From assembly GCF_020172685.1 (NCBI RefSeq), contig NZ_CP083986.1:4234158-4298157 (forward strand): a DNA stretch of 64,000 bases, given 5' to 3'. Each line of letters opens with the position of its first letter. The stretch's first letter is position 1. Of this stretch, positions 21,121-43,432 are shown one piece after another. Source of the DNA: [Mycobacterium] nativiensis. GTDB taxonomy: Bacteria; Actinomycetota; Actinomycetes; Mycobacteriales; Mycobacteriaceae. The notes under the pieces are model-generated. The model was not told the DNA's origin, searched no databases, and saw only the letters and a program-made list of their open reading frames with translations. The translations under genes were made by a program, and so were the position numbers.

Positions 21121-21140
21121 TGGTCTGACCATTATATTAT
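21121..21140 (+). promoter_or_regulatory. FadR-type operator with -10 element before the first ligase operon
   Basis: Perfect palindrome TGGTCTGACCA at 21121-21131, followed five bases after its GGTCTGACC core by a -10-like TATTAT (21135-21140). The same core and spacing recur before the ligase at 34559. The start codon is 20 bp beyond the -10, so the leader would be short. A good -35 is not evident. The arrangement places a bound repressor over the core promoter. Confidence 0.75.
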
Positions 21141-21159
21141 TGACCGCAATGGAGTATTG

Positions 21160-22692
21160 ATGGTCGAGCTCGGTGCCTACTGTCTCCCTGACGTGGTCCG
21201 GGCTTGGGCGCGCGAAAGCCCCGGCAAGCCCGCACTTATCGATCCCGACCGCGTTGTCACCTACGCCCAACTCGACGACCGATCGAACCGCATCGCCATC
21301 GCGCTAGTCACCGCCGGCATTCGGCCCGGCTCCAACATCGGCTATCTGGGCAAGAATTCCGCGGCGTTCTTCGAGATATGGCTGGGTATTAACAAGACGG
21401 GATGTGCATTGACCCCGCTGAACTGGCGCAGCACCCCAGCAGAACTCGTCGAAGTCGTCCAAGACGCCAACCTCCCACTCATCTTCGCCGGTCCCGACTG
21501 CGTCGAACTCGCCGGCCAAGTGCGTGATGCGTTGGGAACGCCCGTTGACGTCATCCTGGAAGACACGTTGGCGGACTGGGCCGGGGATACCGGGGCGGAA
21601 GAGGCCGCCGTAGTTGTCACCGAGGACACCATTGCTCTGCTGGCCTACACCTCCGGCACCACGGCTGCGCCCAAGGGTGTGCCGATTTCGCATGGCGCCC
21701 TGTTGCGATGGTTCCGGGCCGCGTCAGCGGAGCCGTCGGTGAGCTGGGACTCCGATGACATCGGTTTGATGGTGATGCCGAATTTCCATCTGGCCGGCAC
21801 CTGGGTGTCGCTCTCGGCGCTCTATCACGGTGCCTCACTGGCGATCCTGCCGGCATTCGATCCGGCCACCTTCGCCTCCGCCGTCACCACACTGCGCCCA
21901 ACGATAACCTGTCTTGTTCCCACCGCGATACAGATGCTGCTCGACCGGACGCCGGCGCACGCCGATGAGTTCTCGTCGTTGCGCCGAATCCTCTACGCCG
22001 GTTCACCGATCGGACAGCACACCTTGCAGCAAGCACTGGAGGTGTTCGGCTGCGATTTCGTGCAGTTCTACGGAACCACCGAAACGTTCATCATCACCCT
22101 GCTGCGGCCCGATCAGCACCGCCTCGACGATGCCGATTTGCTGAAGTCCTGCGGCCAACCGATGCCAGCAGTAGAACTGCGAATCGTCGACGCGGCCGGA
22201 TGCGACGTAGTCCCGGGTCTAGCGGGCGAAGTCCTGGTGCGCTCACCATGGATGTTCAACGGTTATTGGAACAAACCAGACGCCACAGCCGCCGAGATCA
22301 CCGACGGCTGGTACCGCACCGGCGATGCCGGCATCCACGATGCGGACGGCAATATCCTCCTGATCGACCGACTGAAGGACATGATCGTCAGCGGCGGCGA
22401 GAACATCTACTCGGCCGAAGTCGAGCGGGCCCTGGCAGCCCACCCCTCGGTTGAATCGGTAGCCGTCGTCGGCACCCCCGATGACAGGTGGGGTGAACGC
22501 GTCGTGGCGTTCGTCGTCCCACGCGCAGATGCGCAGGTCGATGCCCCAGCCCTCATAGCGCATAGCCGGGGCCTCATCGCGGGATACAAGGTCCCCAAGG
22601 AGATTCATCTGACCTCTGCGCTGCCGTATACCGCGAGCGGAAAAGTGCAAAAAGGCACTCTGCGCAAAAAACTTCGGGAAGCCAAGAGTTAA
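21160..22692 (+). CDS. Acyl-CoA ligase (AMP-forming), FadD type
   Basis: 510 aa ANL-family ligase: YTSGTTAAPKGVP, QFYGTTET, YRTGD, DRLKDMIVSGGENIYSAEVE and the catalytic Lys in TASGKVQKGTLRK. It would activate a carboxylic acid for the CoA pathway encoded downstream. ATG 21160 has GGAG (21151-21154) five bases upstream; the longer frame from 21079 contains the operator and is excluded. First gene of a four-gene operon (ligase, PECR-like SDR, crotonase, flavoprotein). It may serve as the AliA-like activating step; the substrate is not readable from sequence. Confidence 0.88.
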   Translation: MVELGAYCLPDVVRAWARESPGKPALIDPDRVVTYAQLDDRSNRIAIALVTAGIRPGSNIGYLGKNSAAFFEIWLGINKTGCALTPLNWRSTPAELVEVVQDANLPLIFAGPDCVELAGQVRDALGTPVDVILEDTLADWAGDTGAEEAAVVVTEDTIALLAYTSGTTAAPKGVPISHGALLRWFRAASAEPSVSWDSDDIGLMVMPNFHLAGTWVSLSALYHGASLAILPAFDPATFASAVTTLRPTITCLVPTAIQMLLDRTPAHADEFSSLRRILYAGSPIGQHTLQQALEVFGCDFVQFYGTTETFIITLLRPDQHRLDDADLLKSCGQPMPAVELRIVDAAGCDVVPGLAGEVLVRSPWMFNGYWNKPDATAAEITDGWYRTGDAGIHDADGNILLIDRLKDMIVSGGENIYSAEVERALAAHPSVESVAVVGTPDDRWGERVVAFVVPRADAQVDAPALIAHSRGLIAGYKVPKEIHLTSALPYTASGKVQKGTLRKKLREAKS

Positions 22693-22701
22693 GGGAGCCT
22701 C

Positions 22702-23583
22702 ATGAGTTATCAGTCGGTCTTCACCAAGGACCTCTTCGCCGGACGAACGGTGGTCGTCACCGGCGGGGGTAGCGGGATCGGCCGCTGCACCGCCCACGAA
22801 CTCGCGGCGCTCGGTGCATCCGTGGCGATCGTCGGCCGCAATGAGGACAAACTCACCGCGGTAGCGGCCGAGATCCGCTCCGACGGAGGCCAAGCCAGCA
22901 CCCACAGCGCGGATATCCGCGACGAGGGCGCCGTCGGCGAGGTCATCGACGCGATCCTGACCAAACATGGCCGCATCGATGGATTGTTCAACAACGCCGG
23001 CGGCCAGTACCGCGCAGCCCTGGACACCGTCAGTACCAAGGGTTTTGAGGCAGTGGTGCGCAATAACCTGACTGGCGGCTTCATCGTCATGCGTGAGGTT
23101 TACACCAAGTGGATGAAGGACCATGGCGGCGCCATCGTGAACATGATCGCCGACATCTGGAACGGCTGGCCGCACTTCGCGCACTCGGCGGCCGCCCGCG
23201 GCGGCATGCTGACGCTGAGTGAATCGGCTGCGACCGAGTGGGCCGCGGCGGGCGTGCGGGTGAACACCATCGCACCCGGCTCAATCGCATCGAGCGGACT
23301 GGACACCTACGACAGTAAGGACACCGACTTCATCCGCAACCAGGTCACCCGCGAGATCCCGCTGCAGCGCTTCGGCACCGAGGCTGAGGTCTCCGCTGCC
23401 GTGGTGTTCCTGCTATCCCCTGCCGCCGGCTTCATCACCGGGACCTGCATTCGGGTCGACGGTGGCGCACCGAACGCCAAGCCAGGATGGTGGGAACTGC
23501 AACCGGCACAACACAACAGTCCGTTCGATGGGTTCCATCGCGCCAAACTCCCTACCATCCTCGACGCCAAACAGTCCAACTAG
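22702..23583 (+). CDS. SDR resembling peroxisomal trans-2-enoyl-CoA reductase (PECR)
   Basis: 293 aa SDR with TGGGSGIGR and LFNNAGGQY. In the place of the usual Tyr-x3-Lys it has FAHSAAARGG, which matches the HSGAARAG pattern I recall for mammalian PECR, and the C-terminal ASSGLDTY / SPAAGFITG region also fits that class. It therefore more likely reduces or oxidises an enoyl/3-oxo-acyl-CoA than acts as a classical alcohol dehydrogenase. ATG 22702 lies 9 bp after the ligase stop with AGGGAG upstream. Role in the operon: saturation of a ring or side-chain double bond (inference). Confidence 0.8.
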   Translation: MSYQSVFTKDLFAGRTVVVTGGGSGIGRCTAHELAALGASVAIVGRNEDKLTAVAAEIRSDGGQASTHSADIRDEGAVGEVIDAILTKHGRIDGLFNNAGGQYRAALDTVSTKGFEAVVRNNLTGGFIVMREVYTKWMKDHGGAIVNMIADIWNGWPHFAHSAAARGGMLTLSESAATEWAAAGVRVNTIAPGSIASSGLDTYDSKDTDFIRNQVTREIPLQRFGTEAEVSAAVVFLLSPAAGFITGTCIRVDGGAPNAKPGWWELQPAQHNSPFDGFHRAKLPTILDAKQSN

Positions 23584-23605
23584 CCACAGAACGGAAGGCC
23601 CAATC

Positions 23606-24418
23606 ATGACCGCAAAGGTCCTCTACGAAAAGCGCGGCGAGGTCGCGCACGTCACCCTCAACCGCCCGGAAGTCAAGAACGCAATCGACATCGAAACCCA
23701 CGAGTTGCTGTGTGAGATCTGGCGCGACTTTCGCGACGACTCGGCGCTGCGTGTTGCCGTGATCACCGGCGCCGGTGATGCGTTCACTTCCGGGGCCGAC
23801 CTGAAAACCCATGCGCCCGAGTGGCAGACCGTCGGGCCGATGGTCGGACGCGAACGGCTCGAGGACGGGGTCTCCGGGATCACCCGCGGACCGCTGTCGC
23901 GCATCAACAAGCCCATCGTCGCCGCGATCAACGGCTGGTGCGTCGGCCACGGCGTCGAGCTGGCGATGGCCTGCGACATCCGCATCGCCTCCGAGCGTGC
24001 CCAGTTCGGCACCTTCGAGGTGCGACGGGGGATGCACCCGGCCGACGGCGGGATCGTCCGCCTGGTCAACACCTGCGGGGTCGGGGTGGCGTTGGAGCTG
24101 CTGCTCACCGGGGAGCCGATCTCCGCGCAACGTGCACTGACCGCGAACATGGTCGCCCGAGTAGTACCGCACGACAAGCTCATGGAGGAGACCGATGCCG
24201 TAGTGCAGCGGATCCTGCGCTGCGATCAAGCTGCCATCGAATCGGCCAAGGAAACGGTTCTGGAGGTCATCGGCCGCCCCCTACACGACCAACTGCGGGT
24301 CGAAGCGATGTGGGGCTACGCATTGTGCGCCGGCAACGCCACCGTGATGGAGCGTTCCCAACAGTTTTTCGATAAGGCGGACCGCGGCCGCAACGGCGCC
24401 ACAGCTACCTCCATATAA
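23606..24418 (+). CDS. Enoyl-CoA hydratase with both catalytic Glu (BadK-like role)
   Basis: 270 aa crotonase. The glutamates are kept in VGHGVELAMACD and FGTFEVRRG, and SGADLKTH supplies the oxyanion hole, so true hydratase activity is expected. In the ring-opening scheme it could add water to a cyclohex-1-ene-carboxyl-CoA type intermediate. ATG 23606 is preceded by GGAAGG; the upstream frame overlaps the SDR gene. Third gene of the operator-controlled operon. Confidence 0.86.
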   Translation: MTAKVLYEKRGEVAHVTLNRPEVKNAIDIETHELLCEIWRDFRDDSALRVAVITGAGDAFTSGADLKTHAPEWQTVGPMVGRERLEDGVSGITRGPLSRINKPIVAAINGWCVGHGVELAMACDIRIASERAQFGTFEVRRGMHPADGGIVRLVNTCGVGVALELLLTGEPISAQRALTANMVARVVPHDKLMEETDAVVQRILRCDQAAIESAKETVLEVIGRPLHDQLRVEAMWGYALCAGNATVMERSQQFFDKADRGRNGATATSI

Positions 24419-24442
24419 CAACGAGACCCACAAGGAGCCGAG

Positions 24443-25747
24443 ATGAAGGCAGCGATAATCGGCGGCGGTCCCGCCGGGTGTGCAGCGGCGTACACATTGC
24501 GCAAGCACGGCCACGAGGTGGCGCTGTTCGAGGCGCAGGACCATGTGGGTGGGCGCACCAGCCAGGTGCTCAAGGATGGGTTCAATCTGGGCTCCGGCGC
24601 ACTGTTCCTGATGGGTGGGATCTATCCGCGCACCAACGCCATCCTCAAGGAGTTAGGACACTACCGCGAATTGGTGCGCTGGGACGCCGACACCGAAGTG
24701 CTCGATGCCGACGGCCGGCGTTACACCGCGAGATTCGACCAGGTGTTGAGCTTTCTAGGCATGTCGGCGCTGTCGTGGAAAGACAAGCTGCGGATCGCCG
24801 CCGGGGTGGCCAAACAGTTGGTGACCCCGGGGCCGAAGCTGTGCTTCGACGGCGCCGAGCTGGCCCGCCATGACTCTGGGGAGAGTCTGGAGACCTGGTC
24901 GCGGCGAGTGCTGGGCAATAAGGGCCACGACTACATCACGGTGCCCTACATGGGTTTTCTGTACGCGGTGCCGATGAGCTGGCTGTCCCCGGCGCTGTTT
25001 CACGCGGTGCTCAAACAGTTTTACCGGCTGTCGTTATCAGTGCCGCCGGAGGGCGTGGGGCAGATCTGCGACTGGCTGATCGAAGGCAGCCCCGGATTGG
25101 ACCTACGACTCTCCGCCCCGGTCGAGCGAATCACCAAGGCCGATGTCGGCTACGAAGTGTCCGCCGGCGGCGAGATGCACGCGGTGGACGCGGTGATCGT
25201 GGCACCGGAGCCTGGAGTGGCGGCCGATCTGCTCAGCGGCCTGGTCTCGGAGGCCTCGATAACGAAGCTTCGCGAGTGCCTGTATTCCGACTACGCCCAC
25301 GTGCAGGTCTGTTACAGACGCAACCCCTGGCCCAGGCATCGCGCCAGTGTTGCCCTGCCCGCCAACATGGAACGGGACTGGGGCGCCTGTGTTTTGCTGA
25401 GCAAGCGCCAGCCCACCGCCGTCCCGGCCAGCGGGGAGGCCGTCGGGGTGTACTTCTACACTCCCCCGCTGGAGCATCTGAGCGACGACGCCATCATCAA
25501 GTCCGCGCTCGACGCGGTGCACGAGGTGTACGGGCCCGCCCCGGAGCCGGACTTCGTTGAGCTGTTTCATTACCGACGCGGGCTGTCGATCGCCAACCCC
25601 GGCCACTACGGACGGCTCGACTCGCTGCACGCCGAGATGCCGCCCGGTATCTACCTGGCCGGCGACTACTTCGCTCACGCCGGCGTGGAGGCCGCCATCT
25701 TCAGCGGCGAACTGGCCGCCAACCGGCTCGCCAAGGCGCAACTGTAG
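24443..25747 (+). CDS. FAD-dependent oxidoreductase, amine-oxidase/phytoene-desaturase fold
   Basis: 434 aa flavoprotein. The N-terminal dinucleotide-binding motif is IIGGGPAGCAAAYTL with the following GGRTS, and a C-terminal GIYLAGDYFAHAGVEAA closes the FAD site. No transmembrane signal. The NAD(P)-binding-8/amine-oxidase family contains desaturases and oxidases; here a ring-desaturating step on an alicyclic acid is plausible but not proven. ATG 24443 has AAGGAG upstream. Last gene before a hairpin. Confidence 0.8.
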   Translation: MKAAIIGGGPAGCAAAYTLRKHGHEVALFEAQDHVGGRTSQVLKDGFNLGSGALFLMGGIYPRTNAILKELGHYRELVRWDADTEVLDADGRRYTARFDQVLSFLGMSALSWKDKLRIAAGVAKQLVTPGPKLCFDGAELARHDSGESLETWSRRVLGNKGHDYITVPYMGFLYAVPMSWLSPALFHAVLKQFYRLSLSVPPEGVGQICDWLIEGSPGLDLRLSAPVERITKADVGYEVSAGGEMHAVDAVIVAPEPGVAADLLSGLVSEASITKLRECLYSDYAHVQVCYRRNPWPRHRASVALPANMERDWGACVLLSKRQPTAVPASGEAVGVYFYTPPLEHLSDDAIIKSALDAVHEVYGPAPEPDFVELFHYRRGLSIANPGHYGRLDSLHAEMPPGIYLAGDYFAHAGVEAAIFSGELAANRLAKAQL

Positions 25748-25754
25748 AGAACCT

Positions 25755-25769
25755 TCGCAGGTCCTGCGA
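25755..25769 (+). terminator. Hairpin after the flavoprotein gene
   Basis: Inverted repeat TCGCAG-GTC-CTGCGA, 6-bp stem and 3-base loop, eight bases after the stop. No T-run follows. Position supports a terminator for the operon begun at 21160. Confidence 0.45.
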
Positions 25770-25898
25770 TCCGTGCAAACTCGGTGGTGCGGCTTGGTAC
25801 GCAACTCATGTAGAGCAAGCAGATGTTGGCCGACCCCTTCTATCGACAACACCCCCGTGGGGACTCACCGTCGAAAAATTGCTCACCGGCACACGGGG

Positions 25899-25928
25899 TT
25901 GACTATTTCGGTCTGACCATTTTAATCT
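25899..25928 (+). promoter_or_regulatory. Promoter with embedded FadR-type operator before the SDR at 26140
   Basis: -35 TTGACT (25899-25904), 18-bp spacer, -10-like TAATCT (25923-25928). The spacer contains CGGTCTGACCA (25909-25919). The -10 begins five bases after the GGTCTGACC core, as in the copies at 21121 and 34473. The leader to the SDR start would be about 200 bases. The rest of the 390-bp gap shows no convincing gene; an 18-codon frame at 25972 has no support. Confidence 0.72.
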
Positions 25929-26139
25929 TTCGGTGTGGGACTGTTCGACTCCGCTTCAGCCGGGATCCAGTGATGGCTCCCGAGAAGCTGTCCTACCGCT
26001 CTGCAAACGGTAGGCCGCTGGCCGGCTAGTCGGGTCGGAAGACCAACCGCGCCGACGTGATCGATGACCTGTTGCAATGGCTGCATCGGGTGACAGTGAC
26101 CGCTCCATCCGAGATGTCGACAACCCTAAGGACGAATCA

Positions 26140-26940
26140 ATGGCCGACAACGCCGGCATCGACCTGCCCACCCCCAAGGACCTCACCGCATCGTCTGCGC
26201 TGATCGTCGGCGGCACCGCCGGCATCGGGCTGGCATCAGCCCGCGCGCTCGCCGCAGCCGGCGTACCGCGGATCGCGGTTGTTGGCCGCAACGCCGAACG
26301 GGGCCGGCTGGCCGCCAAGTCACTTGCCGAATTCGGGGCGGACGCGCACTTCGTTGCCGGTGACGCCGCCGATCCGACGGCCGCGGCCTATGTCGCTGAG
26401 AAAGCAGATGGGCTGTTGTCGGGGATCGACATCCTGATGTGCAGCACCGCCGCCGACGTCCGACCGGAACTGTTTATCAATATCCCGATTACCAACATCG
26501 CTCACGGGATCACCCAACTGGCGCTGCCATCGATGCATATGGCCAGCGCGGTGCTACCGGGCATGCGCAGCCGCCGCGGCGGCGTCATCGTGAACGTGGC
26601 CTCCGACGCTGCCAAGACGGCCACGCCGGGCGAAGCGGTGATAGGAGCCGCCAAAGCCGCCATCGTGATGTTCACCCGAACGATCGCCATCGAGGAGAAG
26701 CGCTACGGAATCCGCGCCAACGCGCTCACGCCGTCACTGGTCTTCGGCACCGCCTCCACCGAACGCATCACCACCGATGGATTCAGCGCCAAACTCTTCG
26801 CTCGAGCGGCGCAGGCGGCTTCGCTGGGCGTACCGACGGCTGACGATATCGCCGAGTTGGCGGTGTTCCTGTGCAGCCCAGCCGCCGCTCGGCTAACCGG
26901 ACAGGCGATCAGCGTCAACGGCGGCATCTCCGCGGCCTAA
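26140..26940 (+). CDS. SDR-family protein lacking the catalytic tyrosine
   Basis: 266 aa Rossmann protein with GGTAGIGLASARAL and a C-terminal RLTGQAISVNGG typical of SDRs. The active-site line reads NVASDAAKTA then VIGAAKAA: Ser and Lys are there but Ile stands where Tyr is expected. It may act on CoA thioesters by another mechanism or be inactive. ATG 26140 has AAGGA at 26127-26131; the in-frame ATG at 26077 has no ribosome site. Single-gene unit behind its own operator promoter. BadH-like 2-hydroxyacyl-CoA dehydrogenase would be the tempting role, but the missing Tyr speaks against a simple assignment. Confidence 0.78.
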   Translation: MADNAGIDLPTPKDLTASSALIVGGTAGIGLASARALAAAGVPRIAVVGRNAERGRLAAKSLAEFGADAHFVAGDAADPTAAAYVAEKADGLLSGIDILMCSTAADVRPELFINIPITNIAHGITQLALPSMHMASAVLPGMRSRRGGVIVNVASDAAKTATPGEAVIGAAKAAIVMFTRTIAIEEKRYGIRANALTPSLVFGTASTERITTDGFSAKLFARAAQAASLGVPTADDIAELAVFLCSPAAARLTGQAISVNGGISAA

Positions 26941-32399: not shown

Positions 32400-32421
32400 G
32401 TCTCTCCCCCATTCCGAGTTG

Positions 32422-32432
32422 CGGTCAGACCA
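32422..32432 (-). promoter_or_regulatory. FadR-type operator before the LuxR operon
   Basis: CGGTCAGACCA on the plus strand, exact GGTCNGACC core, 23 bp upstream of the LuxR start codon. On the minus strand it is preceded by a further half-site TGGTCCA. No convincing -35/-10 pair was found around it. Confidence 0.65.
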
Positions 32433-32522: not shown

Positions 32523-32562
32523 TTGCATCCGGCCCCCGACAAATGGTCTAATGGTCAGTCCA
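32523..32562 (+). promoter_or_regulatory. Promoter and degenerate FadR-type operator before the MDR oxidoreductase
   Basis: -35 TTGCAT (32523-32528), 18-bp spacer, -10-like TCTAAT (32547-32552), overlapping TGGTCAGTCCA (32552-32562), one mismatch from a perfect palindrome. The ribosome site GAGGAGG follows at 32565-32571. Together with the site at 32422 it frames a 177-bp divergent control region. Confidence 0.5.
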
Positions 32563-33557: not shown

Positions 33558-33629
33558 GGCGGCGAGACGACGTAGCGCGCGCCAGCACGACGACGACAAG
33601 CCGGACAACCAAAATTTAGGAGACACCCC

Positions 33630-34445: not shown

Positions 34446-34463
34446 GCGATGCGGGCCAACCCG

Positions 34464-34492
34464 TTGCACTTTCGGTCTGACCATTCTATTAT
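34464..34492 (+). promoter_or_regulatory. Promoter with embedded FadR-type operator before the second ligase operon
   Basis: -35 TTGCAC (34464-34469), 17-bp spacer, -10 TATTAT (34487-34492). CGGTCTGACCA (34473-34483) fills the spacer and the -10 starts five bases after the core, exactly as at 21121. This is the clearest promoter of the window and implies repression by occlusion. Confidence 0.78.
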
Positions 34493-34558: not shown

Positions 34559-36265
34559 ATGAAGCCCAGCCCGTACACCGATCGCTATAGCCCGCAGGAG
34601 ATCCGCGACTACTACGAGACGGGGCTGTGGTCGACAGAGACCTTCCATGACCTGCTGCACCGGAACGCCGAAAGCGCCCCCGACAAAGTGTTCGCCACAG
34701 ACGGCACGCGGTCGATGACATTCCGGCAGCTCTTCGACGCTGCCCAACGGTTGGCTGTCGGCCTGCATCGGAAAGGCTGGCGTGCCGGCGACACCGCCGC
34801 CGTGCAGCTGCCGAATTGGGTGGAGTTCATCCAGGTACTGGCCGCACTGTCGCGCCTGGGGGTCACCGCGGTACCTATTATGCCGATCTATCGGCACGAC
34901 GAGGTCGGTCACGTGTTGTCCAACGCCGGAATCCGGGCAGTGTTCACCCCGGCCAGTTTCAAGAAGTTCAACTATCTCGACATGTACCGCGGCCTGCGCC
35001 AGGATCATCCGCAACTCACCATCGTCATCGTCCGGCCCGATGACCCCCAAACCGGCACAGGCACGGACGACAATGTGTTCAGCCTGCACGAACTGGAGAC
35101 CGACACCGACACCGACGACGACAGCGCCCGCGCCGAGCTGGGCACCCCGCCGGGCCCGGACGAGCCATTCGTCATCGTCTACACCTCCGGAACCACGTCA
35201 CGGTCCAAAGGGTGCGCACACACCTTCAACACCTACTGTTCCGGGGCACGCCAGTTGACCACGGCGTTTGGCTACACCCAAGGCGACGTACAGTTCGGCC
35301 CCTCGCCAATCGCGCACACCACCGGACTGGTCACCAGCGTGCTGCTACCGCTGTTGGCTGGGGCATCGACACACCTGATGGCGGATTGGGATCCCGCCCG
35401 AGCAGTCGAGGAGATCCAGCGCTTCGGCTGCACCGCCGCGGTGACAGCCACGACGTTCTTACATACCCTGCTGTCCGCCTACGACACCGAGCGTCACGAT
35501 CTGACCACGTTGCGGTTGTGGACATGCGCGGGTGCGCCGATCCCCACCGCGATCGTCGAACACGCCCACGCGACGCTGCCCGACCTCCGGGTCCTGAGTC
35601 TTTATGGTCGCAGCGAAAACCTTGTTACCACTACATGTTCCATCGACGACGACCCTTCCCGGGCGCTGACCTCCGACGGCAAGGCGCTGCCCGGCGCTCA
35701 GATCCAGGTCGTCGACGCCGACGGCAATGCACTGCCCCCCGGCACCGAAGGCGACATCGCATACCGCGGCCCGTCCCACATGATCGAATATCTCGGTAAT
35801 CCCGAGGAGACCAACGCCCTGTTCACCGCCGACGGTTTCTCCCGCTCAGGCGATCTGGGAGTGATGACCGACGATGGCTTCGTCCGCGTTACCGGCAGGC
35901 TCAAGGACATCGTGATCCGCGGCGGCATGAACATCAGCGTCCGCGAGATCGAGGAGAATCTGGCCCACCACCCCGCACTGCAGGTGTCCTCATGCGTCGC
36001 TATGCCTGACGAGCGGCTCGGCGAAAAGGTGTGCTGCTACGTGGTGACCAAGCCTGGTCACGCCGCCCCGACCGTCGAGGAGTTGCGTAACTTCTTGCTG
36101 GGGCACGGCATGGCGATCCAAAAAACACCGGAACGCGTTATCGCCGTCGACGCGCTCCCGATGACGGCGACCGGCAAGGTCCTCAAACAGGACCTACGCA
36201 AAGACATCAAACAACGCATCGAGGCCGAGCTCGACGCTACTAACAGAATGGCGGATCCCCGCTGA
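34559..36265 (+). CDS. Acyl-CoA ligase (AMP-forming), second of the regulon
   Basis: 568 aa ANL ligase: YTSGTTSRSKGCAHT, SLYGRSE, FSRSGDLG, RLKDIVIRGGMNISVREIEE and Lys in TATGKVLKQDLRK. It resembles cyclohexanecarboxylate/long-chain-type ligases of the AliA/FadD group. ATG 34559 has GAGGA eight bases upstream. It heads an operon with an acyl-CoA dehydrogenase and the two subunits of a CoA-transferase, so it can activate an acid for immediate alpha,beta-desaturation. The A5 region SLYGRSE deviates from the common GxTE, which may reflect an unusual substrate. Confidence 0.87.
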   Translation: MKPSPYTDRYSPQEIRDYYETGLWSTETFHDLLHRNAESAPDKVFATDGTRSMTFRQLFDAAQRLAVGLHRKGWRAGDTAAVQLPNWVEFIQVLAALSRLGVTAVPIMPIYRHDEVGHVLSNAGIRAVFTPASFKKFNYLDMYRGLRQDHPQLTIVIVRPDDPQTGTGTDDNVFSLHELETDTDTDDDSARAELGTPPGPDEPFVIVYTSGTTSRSKGCAHTFNTYCSGARQLTTAFGYTQGDVQFGPSPIAHTTGLVTSVLLPLLAGASTHLMADWDPARAVEEIQRFGCTAAVTATTFLHTLLSAYDTERHDLTTLRLWTCAGAPIPTAIVEHAHATLPDLRVLSLYGRSENLVTTTCSIDDDPSRALTSDGKALPGAQIQVVDADGNALPPGTEGDIAYRGPSHMIEYLGNPEETNALFTADGFSRSGDLGVMTDDGFVRVTGRLKDIVIRGGMNISVREIEENLAHHPALQVSSCVAMPDERLGEKVCCYVVTKPGHAAPTVEELRNFLLGHGMAIQKTPERVIAVDALPMTATGKVLKQDLRKDIKQRIEAELDATNRMADPR

Positions 36266-37455
36266 TGGAGCTCAAGGACAGTGCCCACGAGGCGGAATTC
36301 CGGGCCAAGGCCCGCGCGTGGCTGCAGAACACGTTGCCGCAACTGGGCGGACCCGAACCCGCCCGCTTGGAGGACAAGCTCGGCTATTGGCGCACCTGGC
36401 AACGGCTGCTCTACGACGCCGGGTATGCCGGGCTGTCCTGGCCGAGCCAGTACGGCGGGGGCGGAGCGAACGCAAAGTTACGCGCAGTGTTCAACGAGGA
36501 ACTCGACCGGGCCGGCGCCCCGGAGCGCCTCAACATCGTCGGCGAGGATTTCGCCGGACCCACAATCATCGAGTTCGGCACCCCGGCCCAACAGGAACGG
36601 TATCTGCGACCGATTCTCACCGGCGACGAGCTGTGGTGCCAGTTGTTCTCCGAGCCGGAGGCAGGCTCGGATCTGGCTTCGCTGCGCACCACCGCCACCA
36701 AGGTTGACGGTGGCTGGCGCATCCAGGGCCAGAAGATCTGGACCAGTCGCGCTCAGCTCGCCGCGCACGCTATTCTGCTGGCCCGCACCGGCGGCGGACC
36801 TCGGCACAAGGGAATCACCTATTTCCTGCTCCCGATGGACAGCCCCGGTGTTGACGTCCGACCGCTGACCCACATGCTGGGCGAGTCGGAGTTCAACGAG
36901 GTGTTTCTGGATCAGGTATTCATCCCCGATGAGGGTGTGCTCGGTGAGGTCGATGGCGGCTGGGCGGTCGCGATGGGCACCTTGGCGTTCGAGCGGGTCG
37001 CTATCGCCACCGGTCGGGTCAACACCACCGGCGCGGTCAATGATCTGATCCGTCAGATCGCGGCCCGCACCACCGATGACGGCACCGCGCTGGGCGCTGA
37101 TCCGCTTGTACGACAACGTATCGCCGACCTGTACGGACGCGCGATGGTGCACTACCTGATCGGCCAGCGGGTCATCACCGGAGCGGCCGGCGACGGGCCG
37201 CCCGGCCCGGTCACCTCAATTGGAAAGCTGTTCTTCTGTCCACTGGTGGAGGACATCGCCGATTTCGGGTTGGAGCTCGAAGAGATGGGCGGACAGTTCG
37301 ACTTGCCCCAGAAGGCCGATGACTCCACCTCGGCCGACCACCAGCGCTGGCTGCGGCTGGCCTATCAAGCTCGCGGCACCGCCATCGCCGGTGGGTCGAC
37401 ATTCATCCAGCGAAACATCGTCGCCGAGCGCATCCTCGGTATGCCCAGAAGCTGA
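36265..37455 (+). CDS. Acyl-CoA dehydrogenase
   Basis: 396 aa flavoenzyme: CQLFSEPEAGSDLASL, GWRIQGQKIWTSRAQ and C-terminal GGSTFIQRNIVAERILGMPR are family motifs. A Glu in GTLAFERVAIA lies where isovaleryl/long-chain enzymes place the catalytic base. The ATG overlaps the ligase stop by one base (TGATG). An AliB-like desaturation of a ring carboxyl-CoA is a reasonable role given the ligase upstream. Confidence 0.87.
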   Translation: MELKDSAHEAEFRAKARAWLQNTLPQLGGPEPARLEDKLGYWRTWQRLLYDAGYAGLSWPSQYGGGGANAKLRAVFNEELDRAGAPERLNIVGEDFAGPTIIEFGTPAQQERYLRPILTGDELWCQLFSEPEAGSDLASLRTTATKVDGGWRIQGQKIWTSRAQLAAHAILLARTGGGPRHKGITYFLLPMDSPGVDVRPLTHMLGESEFNEVFLDQVFIPDEGVLGEVDGGWAVAMGTLAFERVAIATGRVNTTGAVNDLIRQIAARTTDDGTALGADPLVRQRIADLYGRAMVHYLIGQRVITGAAGDGPPGPVTSIGKLFFCPLVEDIADFGLELEEMGGQFDLPQKADDSTSADHQRWLRLAYQARGTAIAGGSTFIQRNIVAERILGMPRS

Positions 37456-37478
37456 CAGCCCGGCCTAGGAGGCATCTG

Positions 37479-38228
37479 ATGTTGAACAAAGTCGTGGCGA
37501 CGGCGGCGGAGGCCGTGGCCGACGTGACCGACGGGTCGTCGCTCGCGGTCGGCGGATTCGGGCTGAGCGGTATCCCCGAGGCGCTGATCGATGCGGTGCT
37601 GGAGCTTGGCGTCACCGATCTGGAGACGGTGTCGAACAACCTGGGAATCGACGGGATCGGGTTGGGAGTACTGCTGCAGCACAAGCGTATCCGGCGCACC
37701 GTCAACTCCTACGTGGGGGAGAACAAGGAATTCGCCCGGCAGTACCTGTCCGGTGAGCTTGAGCTGGAGCTGACCCCCCAGGGCACACTCGCCGAGCGGT
37801 TACGCGCCGGCGGCGCCGGGATCCCGGCTTTCTACACACCGACCGGGGTAGGGACACAAGTGGCTGACGGCGGCCTGGCGTGGCGTTACGACCCGTCCGG
37901 TGCGATCGCGGTGGCCTCACCGCCCAAGGAGACCCGCGAATTCGATGGGCGCACCTACGTGTTGGAACGCGCCATCCGAACCGATTTCGCCCTGGTGCAC
38001 GCCTTCAAAGGCGATCGACACGGCAACCTCGTCTACCACGCGGCCGCCGGAAACTTCAACGCGGACTGCGCCGTCGCGGGCCGCATCACCATCGCCCAGG
38101 TTGAGCATCTTGTCGAACCGGGCGAGATCCACCCCGCCCAGGTACACACTCCGGGGATTTACGTGCACCGCGTGGTCCACGTGCCGAACCCGGTGAAACG
38201 AATCGAGAAGGAAACGGTGCGCTCATGA
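37479..38228 (+). CDS. scoA: 3-oxoacid CoA-transferase, subunit A
   Basis: 249 aa SCOT-type alpha subunit: [34 protein letters not shown] and [16 protein letters not shown] are the family segments. It moves CoA between succinyl-CoA and a 3-oxo or dicarboxylic acid, depending on the system. AGGAGG precedes ATG 37479. It may activate or release an acid product of ring opening. Confidence 0.9.
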
Positions 38229-38887
38229 GCGTTGGCTGGAGCCGCGACGAGCTGGCGGCCCGGGTAGCTGCCGAATTCTCCAACGGGCAGTATGTCAACC
38301 TCGGGATCGGGCTACCCACCTTGATCCCCAACCACATTCCCGCCGAGATCACCGTCGTCTTGCATTCGGAGAATGGAATCCTCGGGGTCGGACCGTACCC
38401 TCGACGCGAAGATTTGGATGCCGATCTGATCAACGCCGGCAAGGAAACCGTCACGACGTTGCCGGGTGCGGCGTTCTTCCCATCCTCGGCGTCGTTCGGG
38501 GTCATCCGCGGCGGGCATCTCGATGTGGCGGTGCTGGGCGCCATGCAGGTCTCGGCCGCCGGGGATCTGGCCAACTGGACGGTCCCAGGCAAGGTGATCA
38601 AAGGCATGGGCGGGGCGATGGACCTGGTGCATGGGGCGCGTCGGGTGATGGTGATGATGGACCACACCGCCAAGGACGGCAGCGCGAAGATCGTCGAGCG
38701 CTGCACGCTGCCGCTCACCGGTGCGCGCTGTGTGAACCGGATCTTCACCGATCTCGCCGTCATTGACGTCAACGACAACGGTCTGCGACTGGTGGAGACC
38801 GCACCCGGGGTCAGCGCCGACGAGGTCGTCGCGAAAACCGCAGCACCGGTATCACTTCCGGCGCGGATGCGAAGGTCTGACGCCTGA
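38225..38887 (+). CDS. scoB: 3-oxoacid CoA-transferase, subunit B
   Basis: 220 aa beta subunit with the catalytic Glu in [12 protein letters not shown] and the typical [14 protein letters not shown] and GAMDLV segments. ATG overlaps subunit A by 4 bp. The stop is only 10 bp from the converging GntR stop, leaving no room for a separate terminator. Confidence 0.9.
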
Positions 38888-38897
38888 CAGTCGCCAT

Positions 38898-39671
38898 TCA
38901 GTCCTCGACCCTGATGGCACCACGCTTGTCCATCGCCAACGCGGCCTTGGCGTAGCTGTGCACATGCCGTCCCATGCGCCTACCGGCCGCCTCGGCGTCG
39001 CGGTTGCGGATCGCGGTGGTGATCGACCGGTGCGCACGCTGAGTGATCGCGCGCACGTTCTCGTCAACGAACGTGGGGTTCTCGGTACCCGCATAGATGG
39101 CGTGCGACAACGCGGTCATGAACCCGATCAACAACTCGTTATGGCCGGCGGCAGCCACCCCGACGTGCCAGTCCAGGTTGGCCTGTAGGAACGCCGGCAG
39201 GTCGGCATCCGGGTCGGCGATAGCGTCGTTGGCGGCGTCGAGCACCGCCAGGTCGTCGTCGGTACGGTTCCGGGCCGCCAGCTCCGCGCAGAACGGTTCC
39301 AGCGCCTCGCGGGTCTGCAGCAGATCGGCTAGTTTGATCCGCTGACCACGGATCAACATGCTAACCGAGTTGGCCATCGACTTCGTCGTTGGGCGCTGCA
39401 CAAATGCCCCGCCAGCCCTACCGGCCCGGACCCGAATCAGGTTCTGCACCTCCAGGATGCGCAACGCCTCACGCACCGTGGCCCGGCTCATCTGAGTCTG
39501 TTTGACCAGTTCACGCTCCGCGGGCAGCGCCACCCCCACGGCCAGTTCACCGGACAGAATCCGTTCACGCAGTTCGCGGGCAAGCACATCGGAGGCTTTG
39601 GGCACATCCACCGGCTTGAGGATGACGTTCGAACGTGTCGAAGTCGATGCTGACCCGTCTGGTTCCGTCAA
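38898..39671 (-). CDS. GntR/FadR-type regulator, probable repressor of the island's beta-oxidation regulon
   Basis: 257 aa. The winged-helix domain (about residues 22-90) contains LPAERELVKQTQMSRATVREALRILE in two adjoining parts, resembling the recognition helix of FadR (SRATVREAL), and the wing RAGRAGGAFV. The FCD domain carries FLQANLDWHVGVAAA and the metal-site His residues. A stop precedes the TTG at 39671, which has GGTGGAG upstream and is the likely start. FadR-type proteins bind TGGTCNGACCA, and that motif lies 30 bp upstream and before five other units here, so it probably represses them and itself until an acyl-CoA or acid ligand binds. Confidence 0.88.
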   Translation of the reverse strand: MTEPDGSASTSTRSNVILKPVDVPKASDVLARELRERILSGELAVGVALPAERELVKQTQMSRATVREALRILEVQNLIRVRAGRAGGAFVQRPTTKSMANSVSMLIRGQRIKLADLLQTREALEPFCAELAARNRTDDDLAVLDAANDAIADPDADLPAFLQANLDWHVGVAAAGHNELLIGFMTALSHAIYAGTENPTFVDENVRAITQRAHRSITTAIRNRDAEAAGRRMGRHVHSYAKAALAMDKRGAIRVED

Positions 39672-39700
39672 CGCTCCACCCGTCTACGTTTCGGGCCGAA

Positions 39701-39726
39701 TGGTCCGACCTAAGTTATTCAACTTA
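39701..39726 (-). promoter_or_regulatory. FadR-type operator plus AT-rich inverted repeat upstream of the GntR gene
   Basis: TGGTCCGACCT (39701-39711) carries the exact GGTCNGACC core. Abutting it is a perfect inverted repeat TAAGTT-ATTC-AACTTA (39711-39726). A -10-like TATACT lies upstream on the minus strand (39739-39734), which would put the operator just behind the transcription start. Autoregulation is the simplest reading; the AT-rich repeat may bind a second regulator. Confidence 0.65.
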
Positions 39727-39780
39727 ATGTCAGAGTATATGACTCGGGCACTCTGGCGTGCGGCGCGCGGTTGACCAGGC

Positions 39781-40239
39781 TTAGAAGATCATGCGCGCGA
39801 TCATCTCCGCCACCGCGGCCGGCTTCGCCGAACCGTCGAGTTCGACGGTGTGCCGCACGATCAGGTCCACCGTGGTGTCGTTGACCTTCGTGGCGTCCAC
39901 AAGCTCGGATCGGACCCGGACACGGCTGCCCGCAGGGACCGGCGCGAGGAATCGCACCCGGTTGAGTCCGTAGTTGATGCCCATTTTCGCGTTGTCGACG
40001 CGGTAATTGTCTTTGCTCAGCGCCGGAATGAGGGACAGCGTCAGCAAACCGTGTGCAATCGGCCCGCCGAAGGGACTTTCCATCCGGGCCCGCTCGACGT
40101 CGACGTGAATCCACTGCTGATCGCCGGTGGCATCGGCGAACGCATTAATGCGCTGCTGATCCACGGTGATCCAGCCGGAAGCGCCGAAGTCATGGCCGAC
40201 AGCCTCGATGGCCTCGCCGATAGATGAGATGACTCGCAC
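39781..40239 (-). CDS. MaoC-like hydratase/dehydratase
   Basis: 152 aa hot-dog fold protein of the NodN/MaoC type. The hydratase-2 motif is present: FADATGDQQWIHVD and GGPIAHGLLTLSL supply the Asp and His. It can hydrate enoyl-CoAs to (R)-3-hydroxyacyl-CoAs. GTG 40239 follows AAAGGTAAGC. It is the last gene of the BadI operon, separated from it by a gene remnant. Confidence 0.87.
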   Translation of the reverse strand: MRVISSIGEAIEAVGHDFGASGWITVDQQRINAFADATGDQQWIHVDVERARMESPFGGPIAHGLLTLSLIPALSKDNYRVDNAKMGINYGLNRVRFLAPVPAGSRVRVRSELVDATKVNDTTVDLIVRHTVELDGSAKPAAVAEMIARMIF

Positions 40240-40253
40240 CGCTTACCTTTCTG

Positions 40254-40514
40254 CTACCCGACGGTTCCGCGCCTGCCGGCGGGATGACGGCGTCGCCGGC
40301 ACCATTGCATCGCCCTGGCCAACAGATTGATCGAGATCGAACCGGAACCGCCGACAACCATAGCCGCGACGATCACCGCCGAGCTGCCCAGAACCACACC
40401 CACCACCGCGAAACACATTGCCGTCAGCACATTGAGAAGAGAGATGACAACCCACTGTGGCGACGCTACGGGGGCATCGCCCCCACAGTCGATGTACATC
40501 ACCATCTTCGGCAC
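40254..40514 (-). pseudogene. Fragment resembling NAD(P) transhydrogenase subunit beta (PntB)
   Basis: An open frame of 86 codons with two hydrophobic helices. The run GGDAPV...VVISLLNVLTA, then GVVLGSSAVIV, VVGGSGSISI and LARAMQ follows, in order, the membrane segment of PntB (GGADMPVV.S.LN ... VG.SG.I ... KAMN) that I know from the family. Everything else of PntB, including the NADP-binding domain, is missing, and the C-terminus turns Arg-rich. I read it as a remnant wedged between the DECR-like SDR and MaoC genes. A short expressed membrane peptide cannot be excluded. Confidence 0.5.
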
Positions 40515-40529
40515 CGAATTGACCGGCCC

Positions 40530-41426
40530 CTACACCGAGCGCTCTGCTTTGGCGGCCTCTGACGCTGTCTTGCTCCGCTCCCGTGCAGCCGCCCAATCCT
40601 CATCGGTCAACGCCGAGAGCCCAGCGAAGGTGTTGGGCCCGGCCAGCCGTTGTCCGCCGTCCATAGCGATGGTTTCCCCGGTCAGGTAGTCGCACGCGTC
40701 GGAGAACGCGAAGATGGTGAGGTTCGCCAGTTCGCCGATGGTGCCCGGCCGGCCGAGTGGAATCTGGTCGGACTGCGTCGCACCCACGGAACTCTTATCC
40801 GTCGGGTTGAGCATCTCCCAGGCGTACTCGGTCGGGATCGGCCCGGGCGCAAGGGCATTGAGTCGAATTCCGTACTGGCCCCACTCAACGGCCAGTGACA
40901 TCGTCATGGCGTGCACCGCCGCCTTGGCCATCGCTGACGGGACGACGAAGGCCGACCCGCTCCACACCCAGGTCGTCAGGTTCGACAACACCGAGCCGGG
41001 CAGTCCGTCCGCGATCCAGCGTCGGCCGACAGCCAGCGTGGTATTGAATGAGCCGGTCATCACCGTCGAGGTGACCGCCTCGAACGCACGCTGGCTCAAG
41101 CTCACGGTAGGGGCAATGAAGTTCGCCGCTGCGTTGTTGAGCACACCGGTCAACGGCCCGTGCCGGTCCCAGATCTCGGCCACCGCCGCGTCGACCAGGT
41201 CGTACTCGCGCACGTTGACCGCTTGATGGGCCACCCGGCCGCGGTGGCCGGCCCCGATCTCGGCGGCGGCCTCGGCGAGCACAGCCTCCCGACGGCCCCA
41301 CAGATGCACGTGAGCGCCGTGAGCCACCAATTGTGCCGCCACACCACGCCCCAGCCCGGTGCCGCCGCCGGTGATCAGGATTCGTTTGCCCGCCAGCACG
41401 TCCGGCGCGAATATGGTGCGGCTCAC
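40530..41426 (-). CDS. SDR resembling mitochondrial-type 2,4-dienoyl-CoA reductase (DECR1)
   Basis: 298 aa SDR with TGGGTGLGRG, a GSAFVVPSAMAKAAVHAM segment and APGPIPTEYAW, closely following the pattern I recall for mammalian DECR1 (GSGFVVPSASAKAG; QPGPI). The canonical Tyr of Tyr-x3-Lys is Ser here, as in that family. It would reduce conjugated dienoyl-CoAs with NADPH, useful for unsaturated side chains or rings. ATGA overlap with the dehydrogenase stop. Third gene of the BadI operon. Confidence 0.83.
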   Translation of the reverse strand: MSRTIFAPDVLAGKRILITGGGTGLGRGVAAQLVAHGAHVHLWGRREAVLAEAAAEIGAGHRGRVAHQAVNVREYDLVDAAVAEIWDRHGPLTGVLNNAAANFIAPTVSLSQRAFEAVTSTVMTGSFNTTLAVGRRWIADGLPGSVLSNLTTWVWSGSAFVVPSAMAKAAVHAMTMSLAVEWGQYGIRLNALAPGPIPTEYAWEMLNPTDKSSVGATQSDQIPLGRPGTIGELANLTIFAFSDACDYLTGETIAMDGGQRLAGPNTFAGLSALTDEDWAAARERSKTASEAAKAERSV

Positions 41427-42568
41427 AGCGCCAGGCTCTTCGCGATGATGTCGCGTTGAATCTCGTTGGCACCGCCGTAGATCGGTGGCGCCAAGGCCTT
41501 GCGCAGCTGCGCTTCCATGCCGAACTCGACCGTGTATCCGTTGCCACCCATCAGTTGGATCCCTTCCAGCGCAGCATGTTTAGCGACCTCGGTGCATTTG
41601 AGCTTCGCGATCGAGCCCGCGCGCGCCAGCTGATTTTCCAGCCCGGCATCGATCTGAGCGGCAACCTGATACGTGAAGGCACGGCAACATTCGATCTCGG
41701 CGACCAGATCGGCCAATCGATGCCGGACGGCCTGAAAGCTGCCGACGGAATGCCCGAAGACTTCGCGCTGGCGGACATAGTCGAGCGTGTCCTCCAGGGA
41801 GCGTCGCGCGGCGCCGAGCGACATAGCGGCAATGATCAGCCGCTCCACATTGAGGCCACGCATCAGCCGGTGCCAGGCGTCGCCGATCCCGCCGACGACG
41901 TTGTCGACGGGAACGGCTACATCCGTGAAGAACACTTCATTGACGGTATGACCATCCATGGTCTGTATCGGCTTGATGTCGAGTCCGGGCGTCGAAGTGG
42001 ACAGGTACATCAGCGTGAGGCCATGGTGTTTGCCGACATTAGGGTCGGTGCGGGTAAGCACCAGCAAGTGGTCGGCCAGGTGCGCGGCGGTGATCCAGGT
42101 CTTCTGGCCGTTGACCACGAACCGGTCGCCGTCACGCACCGCCCGGGTGCAGACCGCACCCAGATCGGATCCGGCGCCCGGCTCGGACAACGCGATCGCC
42201 TCGAACCGCCCGGCGCACAGATTGCTCAGCACCTCGATTTTCTGCGGTTCGGTGCCGTGCCGTAGATAGGTCTGGGCGGCGGTCAGGCCGGTGCCGTACG
42301 CGTGAATCGGCGCCTGACCCCGTGCGGTCTCCTCTAGGAAGATGCACTCCTCGACCATGCCCGCTCCGCCGCCGCCGTACTCCGCAGGTATCGACACACC
42401 CAGCCAGCCGAGTTCGGCCAACTGCCGCAACACCGCCGGGCTGTTCGACAGCTTCCCACCATCGGTCAATTGCGCCCGCTGCTCGGCAGTCCCGCAGGTG
42501 TCGGCACAAAATTTCTCGATGGCGTCAGCGAACTCACGCTGCTCCTCGGTGAACAACCCGGCCGTCAC
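41423..42568 (-). CDS. Acyl-CoA dehydrogenase with IVD-type catalytic base
   Basis: 381 aa. Family motifs: LSEPGAGSDLGAV, GQKTWITAAHLA, LMGGNGYTVEFGME and IYGGANEIQRDII. The position used as base by medium-chain enzymes is Gly (IYGGAN), but Glu in GLNVERLIIA matches the isovaleryl/long-chain location, so activity is expected on a branched or ring substrate. GTG 42568 lies 4 bp after the BadI stop. Good candidate for an AliB-like or post-ring-opening desaturation. Confidence 0.87.
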   Translation of the reverse strand: MTAGLFTEEQREFADAIEKFCADTCGTAEQRAQLTDGGKLSNSPAVLRQLAELGWLGVSIPAEYGGGGAGMVEECIFLEETARGQAPIHAYGTGLTAAQTYLRHGTEPQKIEVLSNLCAGRFEAIALSEPGAGSDLGAVCTRAVRDGDRFVVNGQKTWITAAHLADHLLVLTRTDPNVGKHHGLTLMYLSTSTPGLDIKPIQTMDGHTVNEVFFTDVAVPVDNVVGGIGDAWHRLMRGLNVERLIIAAMSLGAARRSLEDTLDYVRQREVFGHSVGSFQAVRHRLADLVAEIECCRAFTYQVAAQIDAGLENQLARAGSIAKLKCTEVAKHAALEGIQLMGGNGYTVEFGMEAQLRKALAPPIYGGANEIQRDIIAKSLAL

Positions 42569-42571
42569 GGG

Positions 42572-43366
42572 TCAGTTGCCCCGGTAGGCGGCGAACTCGG
42601 GGGCGCGCTTCTCGTTGAAGGCGGCTACACCCTCCTGCGCCTCCGGCGTGTCGCCGAACATCTTCAGGCTCGAGTACGCCATCTGCCCCATCGACGCGAA
42701 CTGTTCGGTGTCGGTGTTGAACGACTGCTTGAGCACCTTCAACGCCGTCGGCGAGAGCTGCAGAATCTCGTCTGCCCAAACCCGCACCTCGGCCTTCAGC
42801 TGATCGGCCGGTACCACCTTGTTGACCAGACCCCACTCGGCGGCCTGCTGCGCCGAGTACCGCCGACACAGGAACCAGATTTCACGGGCGCGCTTCTCTC
42901 CGACTATCCGCGCCAGGAATCCGGTGCCGAAGCCTGCATCGAACGACCCGACCCGGGGGCCGTTCTGGCCGAATATCGCGGTGTCGGCAGCGATCGTCAG
43001 GTCGCACAGCACGTGCAGCACATGGCCACCACCGATGGCGAACCCGTTGACCGCGGCAATCACCGGCTTGGGTACGTCGCGGATGACCCGGTGCAGCGAA
43101 TCCACCTCGAACAGGCCTGTTTCGGACGGCCCGTAGTCGCCGGTCTCCGCCCGTTGTTTCTGGTCACCACCGGTACAGAACGCCTTCTCGCCCGCCCCGG
43201 TCAGACAGATCACCCCAACATCCGCGCTTCCCCACGCCAATTTGAACGCTCGGATCAGCTCATCGAGGGTGCGCGCCCGAAACGCGTTGTACCGCTCGGG
43301 CCTATTGATGGTGATCCAGGCCAGGCCGTTGTCGACCTGGTAAGTGATGTCGGTGAATTCGGTCAT
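42572..43366 (-). CDS. badI: BadI-like 2-ketocyclohexane-1-carboxyl-CoA hydrolase (ring opening)
   Basis: 264 aa MenB-branch crotonase. Its segments NRPERYNAFRARTLDELI, FCTGGDQ, IRDVPKPVIAAVNGFAIGGG, GPRVGSFDAGFGT and KRAREIWFLCRRYS track BadI of Rhodopseudomonas palustris (about 260 aa) much better than MenB or hydratases. BadI hydrolytically opens 2-ketocyclohexanecarboxyl-CoA to pimelyl-CoA. ATG 43366 is preceded by AGAGGGG. First gene of an operon with acyl-CoA dehydrogenase, dienoyl reductase and MaoC, controlled by a FadR-type operator. The ring substituent, if any, is unknown. Confidence 0.82.
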   Translation of the reverse strand: MTEFTDITYQVDNGLAWITINRPERYNAFRARTLDELIRAFKLAWGSADVGVICLTGAGEKAFCTGGDQKQRAETGDYGPSETGLFEVDSLHRVIRDVPKPVIAAVNGFAIGGGHVLHVLCDLTIAADTAIFGQNGPRVGSFDAGFGTGFLARIVGEKRAREIWFLCRRYSAQQAAEWGLVNKVVPADQLKAEVRVWADEILQLSPTALKVLKQSFNTDTEQFASMGQMAYSSLKMFGDTPEAQEGVAAFNEKRAPEFAAYRGN

Positions 43367-43416
43367 CGGTTGCCCCTCTTCGTTGAAAGTCGCAGTTACT
43401 GCCCACCCACAGGCTT

Positions 43417-43432
43417 TGGTCTTACCATATTA
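43417..43432 (-). promoter_or_regulatory. FadR-type operator and -10 before the BadI operon
   Basis: TGGTCTTACCA (43417-43427), a perfect arm palindrome with one changed centre base, overlapping a -10-like TAATAT on the minus strand (43432-43427). It is 51 bp before the BadI start codon. No strong -35 is visible. Confidence 0.6.

Follow-up and report, generated by a model that had tools for sequence, protein, structure and literature searches.

A conserved GntR-type operator set and its candidate FCD-type repressor in a catabolic locus of [Mycobacterium] nativiensis

The 64,000-nucleotide stretch of the [Mycobacterium] nativiensis genome considered here (the window, C1:4234158-4298157 of a single contig of 5,276,002 bp) carries seven operator-like palindromes in the control regions of a catabolic gene cluster, together with the gene of a GntR-family regulator, GntR-A (38898..39671, minus strand; start codon at either 39671 or 39611). 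We propose that an FCD-type GntR repressor, namely GntR-A and possibly also its paralog GntR-B, binds these operators, represses the locus, and is released by a ligand of the pathway, a model that we regard as probable. The sites, the promoter geometry, the conservation, and the co-occurrence with GntR described below were all computed; GntR-A is the best candidate for the repressor.

The exact core GGTCNGACC is present at 21122, 25910, 32423, 34474, and 39702, as a preliminary description of this DNA had reported, and its two near-copies are likewise real, with 32552-32562 reading TGGTCAGTCCA and 43417-43427 reading TGGTCTTACCA. Two further exact cores that the description had not listed lie inside genes, at 38386 (a CoA-transferase B gene) and 47588 (an alcohol dehydrogenase gene). 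The sites were scored with a matrix of 15 columns derived from 51 distinct operators, all from other genomes and with the window excluded; the matrix was built after the window sites were known, and its source operators were selected for a full core (76 of 84 candidates, leaving out 8 gntR promoters that lack it). When the window is scanned in this way, exactly the seven reported sites come first (23.1, 23.1, 21.0, 20.8, 20.8, 14.9, and 14.8). The two highest scores belong to TGGTCTGACCA at 21121..21131, 5′ of CoA ligase 1, and to the site at 43417..43427, 5′ of a BadI-like gene. The operator 5′ of gntR-A itself (39701..39711; 21.0) would provide autoregulation. The two sites scoring 20.8 each sit within a 17-bp promoter spacer, at 25909..25919 between TTGACT and TTAATC 5′ of an SDR gene, and at 34473..34483 between TTGCAC and TATTAT 5′ of ligase 2. 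The last two lie in the divergent gap between the LuxR and MDR genes, at 32552..32562 directly 5′ of the MDR gene (14.9) and at 32422..32432 (14.8). The eighth-ranked place (13.8) falls within a called gene; scores go no higher than 10.1 in the reversed window and 17.3 in 20 block shuffles. The description had placed all of the sites between genes, which depends on the choice of start codons: it holds if the more probable starts (21160; 32282 or 32411; 32577) are used, but not for 21121, 32422, and 32552 if the longest open reading frames (ORFs) of the ligase 1, LuxR, and MDR genes are taken. Its fixed distance to a TAnnnT at three sites, and the position of the operator within the spacer at 25909 and 34473, hold by eye, and the operators at 39701 and 43417 are seen by eye to lie just 3′ of a -10-like sequence. 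Immediately 5′ of the BadI-like operator there is also a half-site-like stretch, TTTGGTA (window 43427-43434 and orthologs), in 12 of 12 distinct rows.

By count alone, the enrichment of the motif is only weakly above chance. The core GGTCNGACC occurs 7 times in the window against 2.9 expected, a number reached in 1 of 100 shuffles, and the 11-mer at up to two mismatches occurs 41 times against 38.7 expected; we rejected this loose enrichment as evidence, since it is at chance level. These modest counts are an argument that the sites are chance palindromes or a product of promoter composition, along with the strand matches to GGTCNGACCAT in 10 relatives that have no close GntR (6-18 per genome, compared to 14-43 in 16 genomes with GntR). 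Such an origin is nevertheless hardly credible, as it is contradicted by the non-coding location of the sites, by a matrix trained elsewhere, and by genome-wide clustering. It is by their position that the sites become significant: five of the seven exact cores fall within the 7.4% of the window called non-coding, where 12 permuted palindromes of the same composition find 0 or 1 match each. Across 28 ortholog loci (520,388 bases), 41 of 57 exact cores are non-coding, which is 1.16 per kb of non-coding compared to 0.033 per kb of coding DNA, and the permuted palindromes have 0-5 non-coding matches each. Coding calls came from a simple codon-usage caller made for this analysis, and a spurious opposite-strand gene over gntR-B meant that the gntR-B site was counted as coding. 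The degenerate pattern TWNGGTCNNACCNWW, chosen after the external operators and the window were known, has 8 distinct places genome-wide, and six of these are in one 62-kb catabolic locus, which by simple arithmetic would hold about 0.1 of the 8 if they were spread uniformly. The six are promoter sites, namely that of gntR-B and window 21121, 25909, 34473, 39701, and 43417; the other two places are 311677 and 5138781, the latter by eye inside an acyl-CoA-dehydrogenase-like ORF. An equal density of the motif in coding DNA, named beforehand in the preliminary description as an outcome that would speak against it, was thus not what we found. Conservation, for example 5′ of a dehydrogenase gene in an operon near gntR-B (the B operon, described below), also contradicts a chance origin: operators are kept (mean identity 0.97) while their upstream flanks drift (0.46 and 0.55), in rows picked by the operator's own pattern.

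Two broader readings of the whole genome were rejected. One is a global fatty-acid regulon, as the degenerate pattern has only two places outside the locus. The whole-genome count of GGTCNGACCAT, 16 forward versus 3 reversed, is not taken as enrichment because 10 relatives without a close GntR also show an excess (6-18 strand matches versus 0-4 per direction reversed), and the reversed-pattern control was discarded. Outside the window, GGTCNGACCAT has 9 exact places, of which one is the gntR-B promoter, and crude ORF lists show an ORF that covers or abuts 8 of them.

The operator is also retained in relatives, promoter by promoter (sites are counted at a score of at least 14.5, with the genome of the window included, and gntR matches in other loci were found with GNTR_A as query). 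The full GGTNNNACC core is present 5′ of ligase 2 in 28 of 28 relatives that were not chosen by site. In 48 ligase-2 promoters, comprising the window, these 28 relatives, and 19 ortholog loci picked for an exact core, a -10 TAnnnT begins exactly 4 bases past the core without exception, and a TTG starts 10-11 bp 5′ of the core in 45. From this constant spacing and the position of the TTG, the operator fills the 17-18-bp spacer of the ligase-2 promoter. A separate count, on loci partly shared with the 28, found a site at every one of the 27 ligase-2 genes whose upstream sequence was long enough. The BadI-like gene has a site in 14 of 16 loci (14.4 in the other two), and the B-operon dehydrogenase in 18 of 23, with four more at 13.2-14.4 and one at 5.1. 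The ligase 1 promoter (1/1) has a site about 52-55 bp 5′ of the gene in both close orthologs (23.1 and 15.1; 69-71% identical proteins), and none is found 5′ of the two remote orthologs (44% identical). For the SDR gene at 26077 (1/3), a strong site is located 903-959 bp upstream in all four window-type genomes where the SDR was found, and an alpha/beta hydrolase gene separates the site from the SDR in M. paragordonae. Fewer sites were counted at ACAD_36265 (7/28), ECH_33630 (3/25), and B_ECH (2/21), and none at SDR_40530 (0/7), MAOC (0/13), PLSB (0/12), and MENB (0/6), nor at the operon-internal genes CTA (0/8) and B_SDR1, B_THIO, and B_SDR2 (0/22 each). The gntR promoters carry the GGTNNNACC core in 48 of 56 orthologs. 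By our own grouping of these proteins, the core is present in 10 of 10 of a group with a single gntR copy, in 6 of 6 B-type promoters, and in 27 of 28 distant relatives, where the exception is a short locus with a core further upstream; locus L078 has no core. Among the 76 operators collected for GGTNNNACC, T stands at -3 in 72 and at -2 in 69.

Several observations weigh against the proposed repressor model. Two sites, at 32423 and 32553, do not exceed the scores of the shuffles, so that the other five are clear of chance by score and these two, in the LuxR/MDR gap, are not by score alone, although the gap sites have counterparts in relatives (LUXR, 11 of 11 loci). Of 24 MDR promoters, 14 have a site; for the single-copy group the count is 1 of 9. 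The site at 25909 has no counterpart before the SDR gene in 7 loci of five other genomes. Promoters of gntR of the A (window) type are losing the core, with 5 of 11 ortholog loci keeping it, as does the window genome, and the M. paragordonae plasmid has no site before gntR. Finally, the paralog GntR-B could regulate some or all of the sites.

In the mechanism that we propose, GntR-A, possibly with GntR-B, would bind as a dimer to (A/T)nGGTC-n-GACCn(A/T). With the operator in the spacer between -35 and -10 at 25909 and 34473, and just 3′ of a -10-like sequence at gntR and the BadI-like gene, a bound repressor would exclude RNA polymerase. Release is predicted to follow binding of the pathway acid or its CoA thioester, which two CoA ligases would make or consume. 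We infer binding by GntR-A, repression, the type of ligand, and a substrate in the class of ring-bearing carboxylic acids.

GntR-A has an N-terminal GntR winged helix (PF00392, 57 bits) and a C-terminal FCD domain (PF07729, 90 bits), both over the cut-off, and N165, H169, H214, and H236 are invariant in the FCD domain. The closest solved structure by profile is PDB 2di3 (E 1.8e-22), which we take to be a GntR protein from C. glutamicum. These domains place GntR-A among the FCD-type GntR regulators of the broad FadR subfamily, and the 48 gntR and 28 ligase-2 promoters with a core have the operator type of that subfamily, TNGTNNNACNA (PMC2230225). The preliminary description had called the regulon "FadR-type", which does not stand as a statement of membership. 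Neither GntR-A nor GntR-B matches FadR_C (PF07840) at E up to 1, a domain for which the E. coli FadR control scores 252 bits; GntR-A is 20% identical to E. coli FadR and falls far below the FadR equivalog cut-offs (32.4 bits versus 189; 28.3 versus 249.2); FadR membership was therefore rejected. A distant ortholog (L018) has a sub-threshold PF07840 match (19.7 bits versus a cut-off of 23.6), and the relative P0082 has PF07840 among its precomputed domains. PdhR gives GntR-A its best curated family score, and the equivalog cut-off is again not reached (101.8 bits versus 330); no pyruvate dehydrogenase subunit was found among the window genes that were scanned, which are not all of them. The identity of the core with the E. 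coli FadR operator is real, the published form being aaCTGGTCnGACC(T/A)Gtt (PMC9329746). As GGTNNNACC fits the general FadR-subfamily operator TNGTNNNACNA, however, the core does not by itself indicate fatty acids. By our own reading of the alignment, four of the seven FadR DNA-contact residues in the list of PMC4259882 are identical in GntR-A (R35, R45, T47, and R49), which fits an operator core shared with FadR, and A83 at the position of FadR H65 would fit different operator flanks.

The occurrence of the regulator follows that of a close ligase 2. Among 401 genomes of the family, 35 have ligase 2 at E up to 1e-100, and 30 of these were tested for GntR, the remaining five being the window genome and four with ligases of 36-37%. 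A close GntR (61-69% identity) is present in 28 of the 30, all with a best ligase of at least 55%, and the two genomes without one have only 38-39% ligases. Close relatives of GntR occur in Mycolicibacterium vulneris and other mycobacteria. The window genome has a second copy, GntR-B, at 4214728-4215471 (L048:4729-5472, minus strand), 18.7 kb outside the window and about 58 kb from GntR-A. The two proteins are 73-75% identical, and the gntR-B promoter carries the operator TATGGTCAGACCGAA (21.9). On the other side of GntR-B, past one gene, lies the B operon, encoding an acyl-CoA dehydrogenase (ACAD), an SDR, a thiolase, and CoA-transferase-like and HMG-CoA-lyase-like proteins. In 14 related genomes, the eight with proteins of the single-copy group have one gntR copy, whereas five of the six with window-type proteins have two and the sixth has one (these are drafts, so a copy may have been missed). 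Eight single-copy loci have GntR flanked by the dehydrogenase-thiolase operon on one side and the ligase-2 operon on the other, and the operon sets of two-copy genomes each come with a GntR of their own. A tree of 56 proteins, from which L128 and L136 were left out as their loci are cut short, puts the A, B, and single-copy groups each on one side of a well-supported branch (99/95, 99/94, and 97/95), and the joining of the three groups has low support (81/31).

The preliminary description had made the GntR protein at 38898 the repressor of both ligase operons, the SDR operon, the LuxR/MDR gap, the BadI-like operon, and itself. One GntR-family regulon is supported by the conserved operators and their non-coding density, but the regulator may be one or both of the two paralogs, as GntR-B has the same operator. 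An unlikely alternative is that GntR-B is the main repressor and GntR-A a copy in the course of divergence, with a separate function or hardly any. This would agree with the catabolic operators at 21121, 25909, and 34473, which read GGTCTGACCAT, a form often seen at gntR promoters of the B-type and single-copy groups, with the fuller retention of the core in B-type than in A-type gntR promoters (6/6 versus 5/11), and with the almost identical helix-turn-helix of the two proteins. It is at odds with the GntR-A orthologs, which form a well-supported clade and in all 11 window-type loci are neighbors of the ligase-2 and BadI-like genes, and with an A-type genome (G154) that showed no second copy. 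We retain GntR-A as the candidate, possibly sharing the sites with GntR-B.

Another regulator of the locus could use the motif, for example the tandem LuxR pair, which stands beside the divergent sites; LuxR pairs are also annotated in the loci on the plasmids of M. paragordonae and R. ruber. We consider this very improbable, as the motif precedes gntR itself in several genera and the core fits the FadR-subfamily operator (PMC2230225). Moreover, eight single-copy loci of about 18-21 kb keep the operators and have no ortholog of the two LuxR genes (at least 40%, E up to 1e-20; other LuxR genes were not sought).

Returning to a GntR repressor, the operators themselves may be graded. The acyl-CoA dehydrogenase of the B operon is preceded in the window genome by the variant TTTGGTCTGTCCATT, in which one half-site is broken. 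Among 23 loci, 22 have this site, as GGTCnGTCC in 21 and as GGTCTGGCC in 1. Over 21 distinct rows, the 15-bp operator has a mean identity of 0.97, biased upward because a pattern for that operator form was used to collect the rows, compared to 0.46 upstream and 0.69 downstream, where the -10 lies. The persistence of this variant while the upstream flanks drift suggests selection for a non-consensus, presumably weaker operator, for which we have no better explanation. This variant and the ligase-2 spacer operator are kept across genera, and the BadI-like TATGGTnAGACCATA is kept within mycobacterial window-type loci. We tentatively suggest, as an idea that is more doubtful than the repressor model itself, that promoters keep their own operator versions over long evolution so that rising ligand would open the operons one after another in a fixed order, and that on splitting of the one-regulator cluster a repressor copy went with each half, both copies still reading the same operators.

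The genes that adjoin the sites encode two CoA ligases, SDRs, crotonases, two acyl-CoA dehydrogenases, a CoA-transferase pair, a MaoC-like protein, and a BadI/MenB-like crotonase. On the plus strand, the AMP-binding acyl-CoA ligase 1 (21160..22692; start at about 21160) is followed by SDR, enoyl-CoA hydratase, and FAD amine-oxidase-like genes (22702..25747) and by an SDR oxidoreductase (26077..26940). Tandem LuxR-type regulators (GAF-GerE and GerE; 30175..32411, minus strand, with the start of the upstream gene estimated) face a zinc-binding (MDR) dehydrogenase and an enoyl-CoA hydratase (32577..34445, plus strand). The ligase-2 operon (34559..38887, plus strand) encodes an acyl-CoA ligase, a pimeloyl-CoA-dehydrogenase-like ACAD, and CoA-transferases A and B, and MaoC-like, SDR, ACAD, and BadI/MenB-like crotonase genes occupy 39781..43366 on the minus strand. 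The "beta-oxidation operons" of the preliminary description are too narrow a label, as ring-hydroxylating, ring-cleaving, and BadI/MenB-like enzymes are also in the locus, and the apparent function of the targets is ring cleavage together with beta-oxidation rather than general fatty-acid degradation. The locus would then degrade a ring-bearing carboxylic acid. Window 11333-21035, which has no strong operator, encodes a Rieske alpha subunit (275 bits to BenA), a LigB-type extradiol dioxygenase, an HsaD/BphD-like C-C hydrolase, a hydratase, an acetaldehyde dehydrogenase, an aldolase, and a 3-hydroxyisobutyryl-CoA hydrolase. Resemblance of the genes at 11-20 kb to steps of p-cumate degradation, which end in isobutyrate (PMC5224996), led us to consider a p-cumate-like or p-menthane acid as a candidate substrate, and the AliA/BadI-like enzymes (PMC4591350) led us to consider cyclohexanecarboxylate. 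The aldolase and the 3-hydroxyisobutyryl-CoA hydrolase pass their model cut-offs. No single substrate is named, because the Rieske protein, hydrolase, and hydratase fall below theirs and the extradiol enzyme matches no NCBIfam model. A MenB at 29249-30178 (minus strand, 552 bits) is the second in the genome above the curated cut-off, the other being at C1:692553-693452 (591 bits), and it is possibly a ring-opening crotonase. A Mce/YrbE-type transport set and a third CoA ligase lie at 646-9585, with no strong operator there.

Among the closest known systems, E. coli FadR likewise has a GntR winged helix and a TGGTCnGACC core, and as a single repressor it controls both acyl-CoA ligase and beta-oxidation genes, but it has a FadR_C domain and binds acyl-CoA (PMC9329746), whereas GntR-A has an FCD domain and a local regulon, and its operators are flanked by T-rich sequence instead of CTG/CAG. 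C. glutamicum GntR1 and GntR2 are FCD-type paralogs of gluconate and glucose genes that are reported to be redundant in function (PMC2230225), and they resemble the present pair in being paralogous and in their TNGTNNNACNA-type operators; here the locus would instead serve the catabolism of ring compounds, and each copy lies in one half of a split cluster. E. coli PdhR (102 bits) is 31% identical to GntR-A and has different neighboring genes. M. tuberculosis Rv0494 is also a mycobacterial protein of the GntR/FadR family and only a weak match to GntR-A (E 2.2e-7); it is described with 77 binding places and altered expression at only two (PMC4301838), compared to the compact local set here. A GntR gene, narR1, is reported in a Rhodococcus naphthalene cluster (PMC4591350), and the isobutylene plasmid of Mycolicibacterium ELW1 has a FadR/GntR gene but other pathway genes than here (PMC13188929). 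In a literature search that mostly stopped short of full texts, no regulon of this kind was named.

The locus is also present in mycobacteria, in what genome kinship indicates to be more distant genera of the same family, and in metagenome-assembled genomes labelled Pseudonocardia or Pseudonocardiales. Two large plasmids carry the GntR cluster, in M. paragordonae (L086, NZ_CP025547.1) and R. ruber (L087, NZ_CP145320.1), with P450 and dehydrogenase genes nearby, and given this plasmid location the pathway may move between strains. Overall, this is a well-supported case of an ordinary kind of local control circuit, in which the duplicated repressor is unusual. An operator core resembling that of FadR need not mean a fatty-acid FadR. 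The analysis gives a testable set of regulator, operators, and promoters for a catabolic locus, and the two paralogs that share an operator, next to a sister group with a single copy, offer a natural setting in which to ask how a regulon is divided between duplicated repressors.

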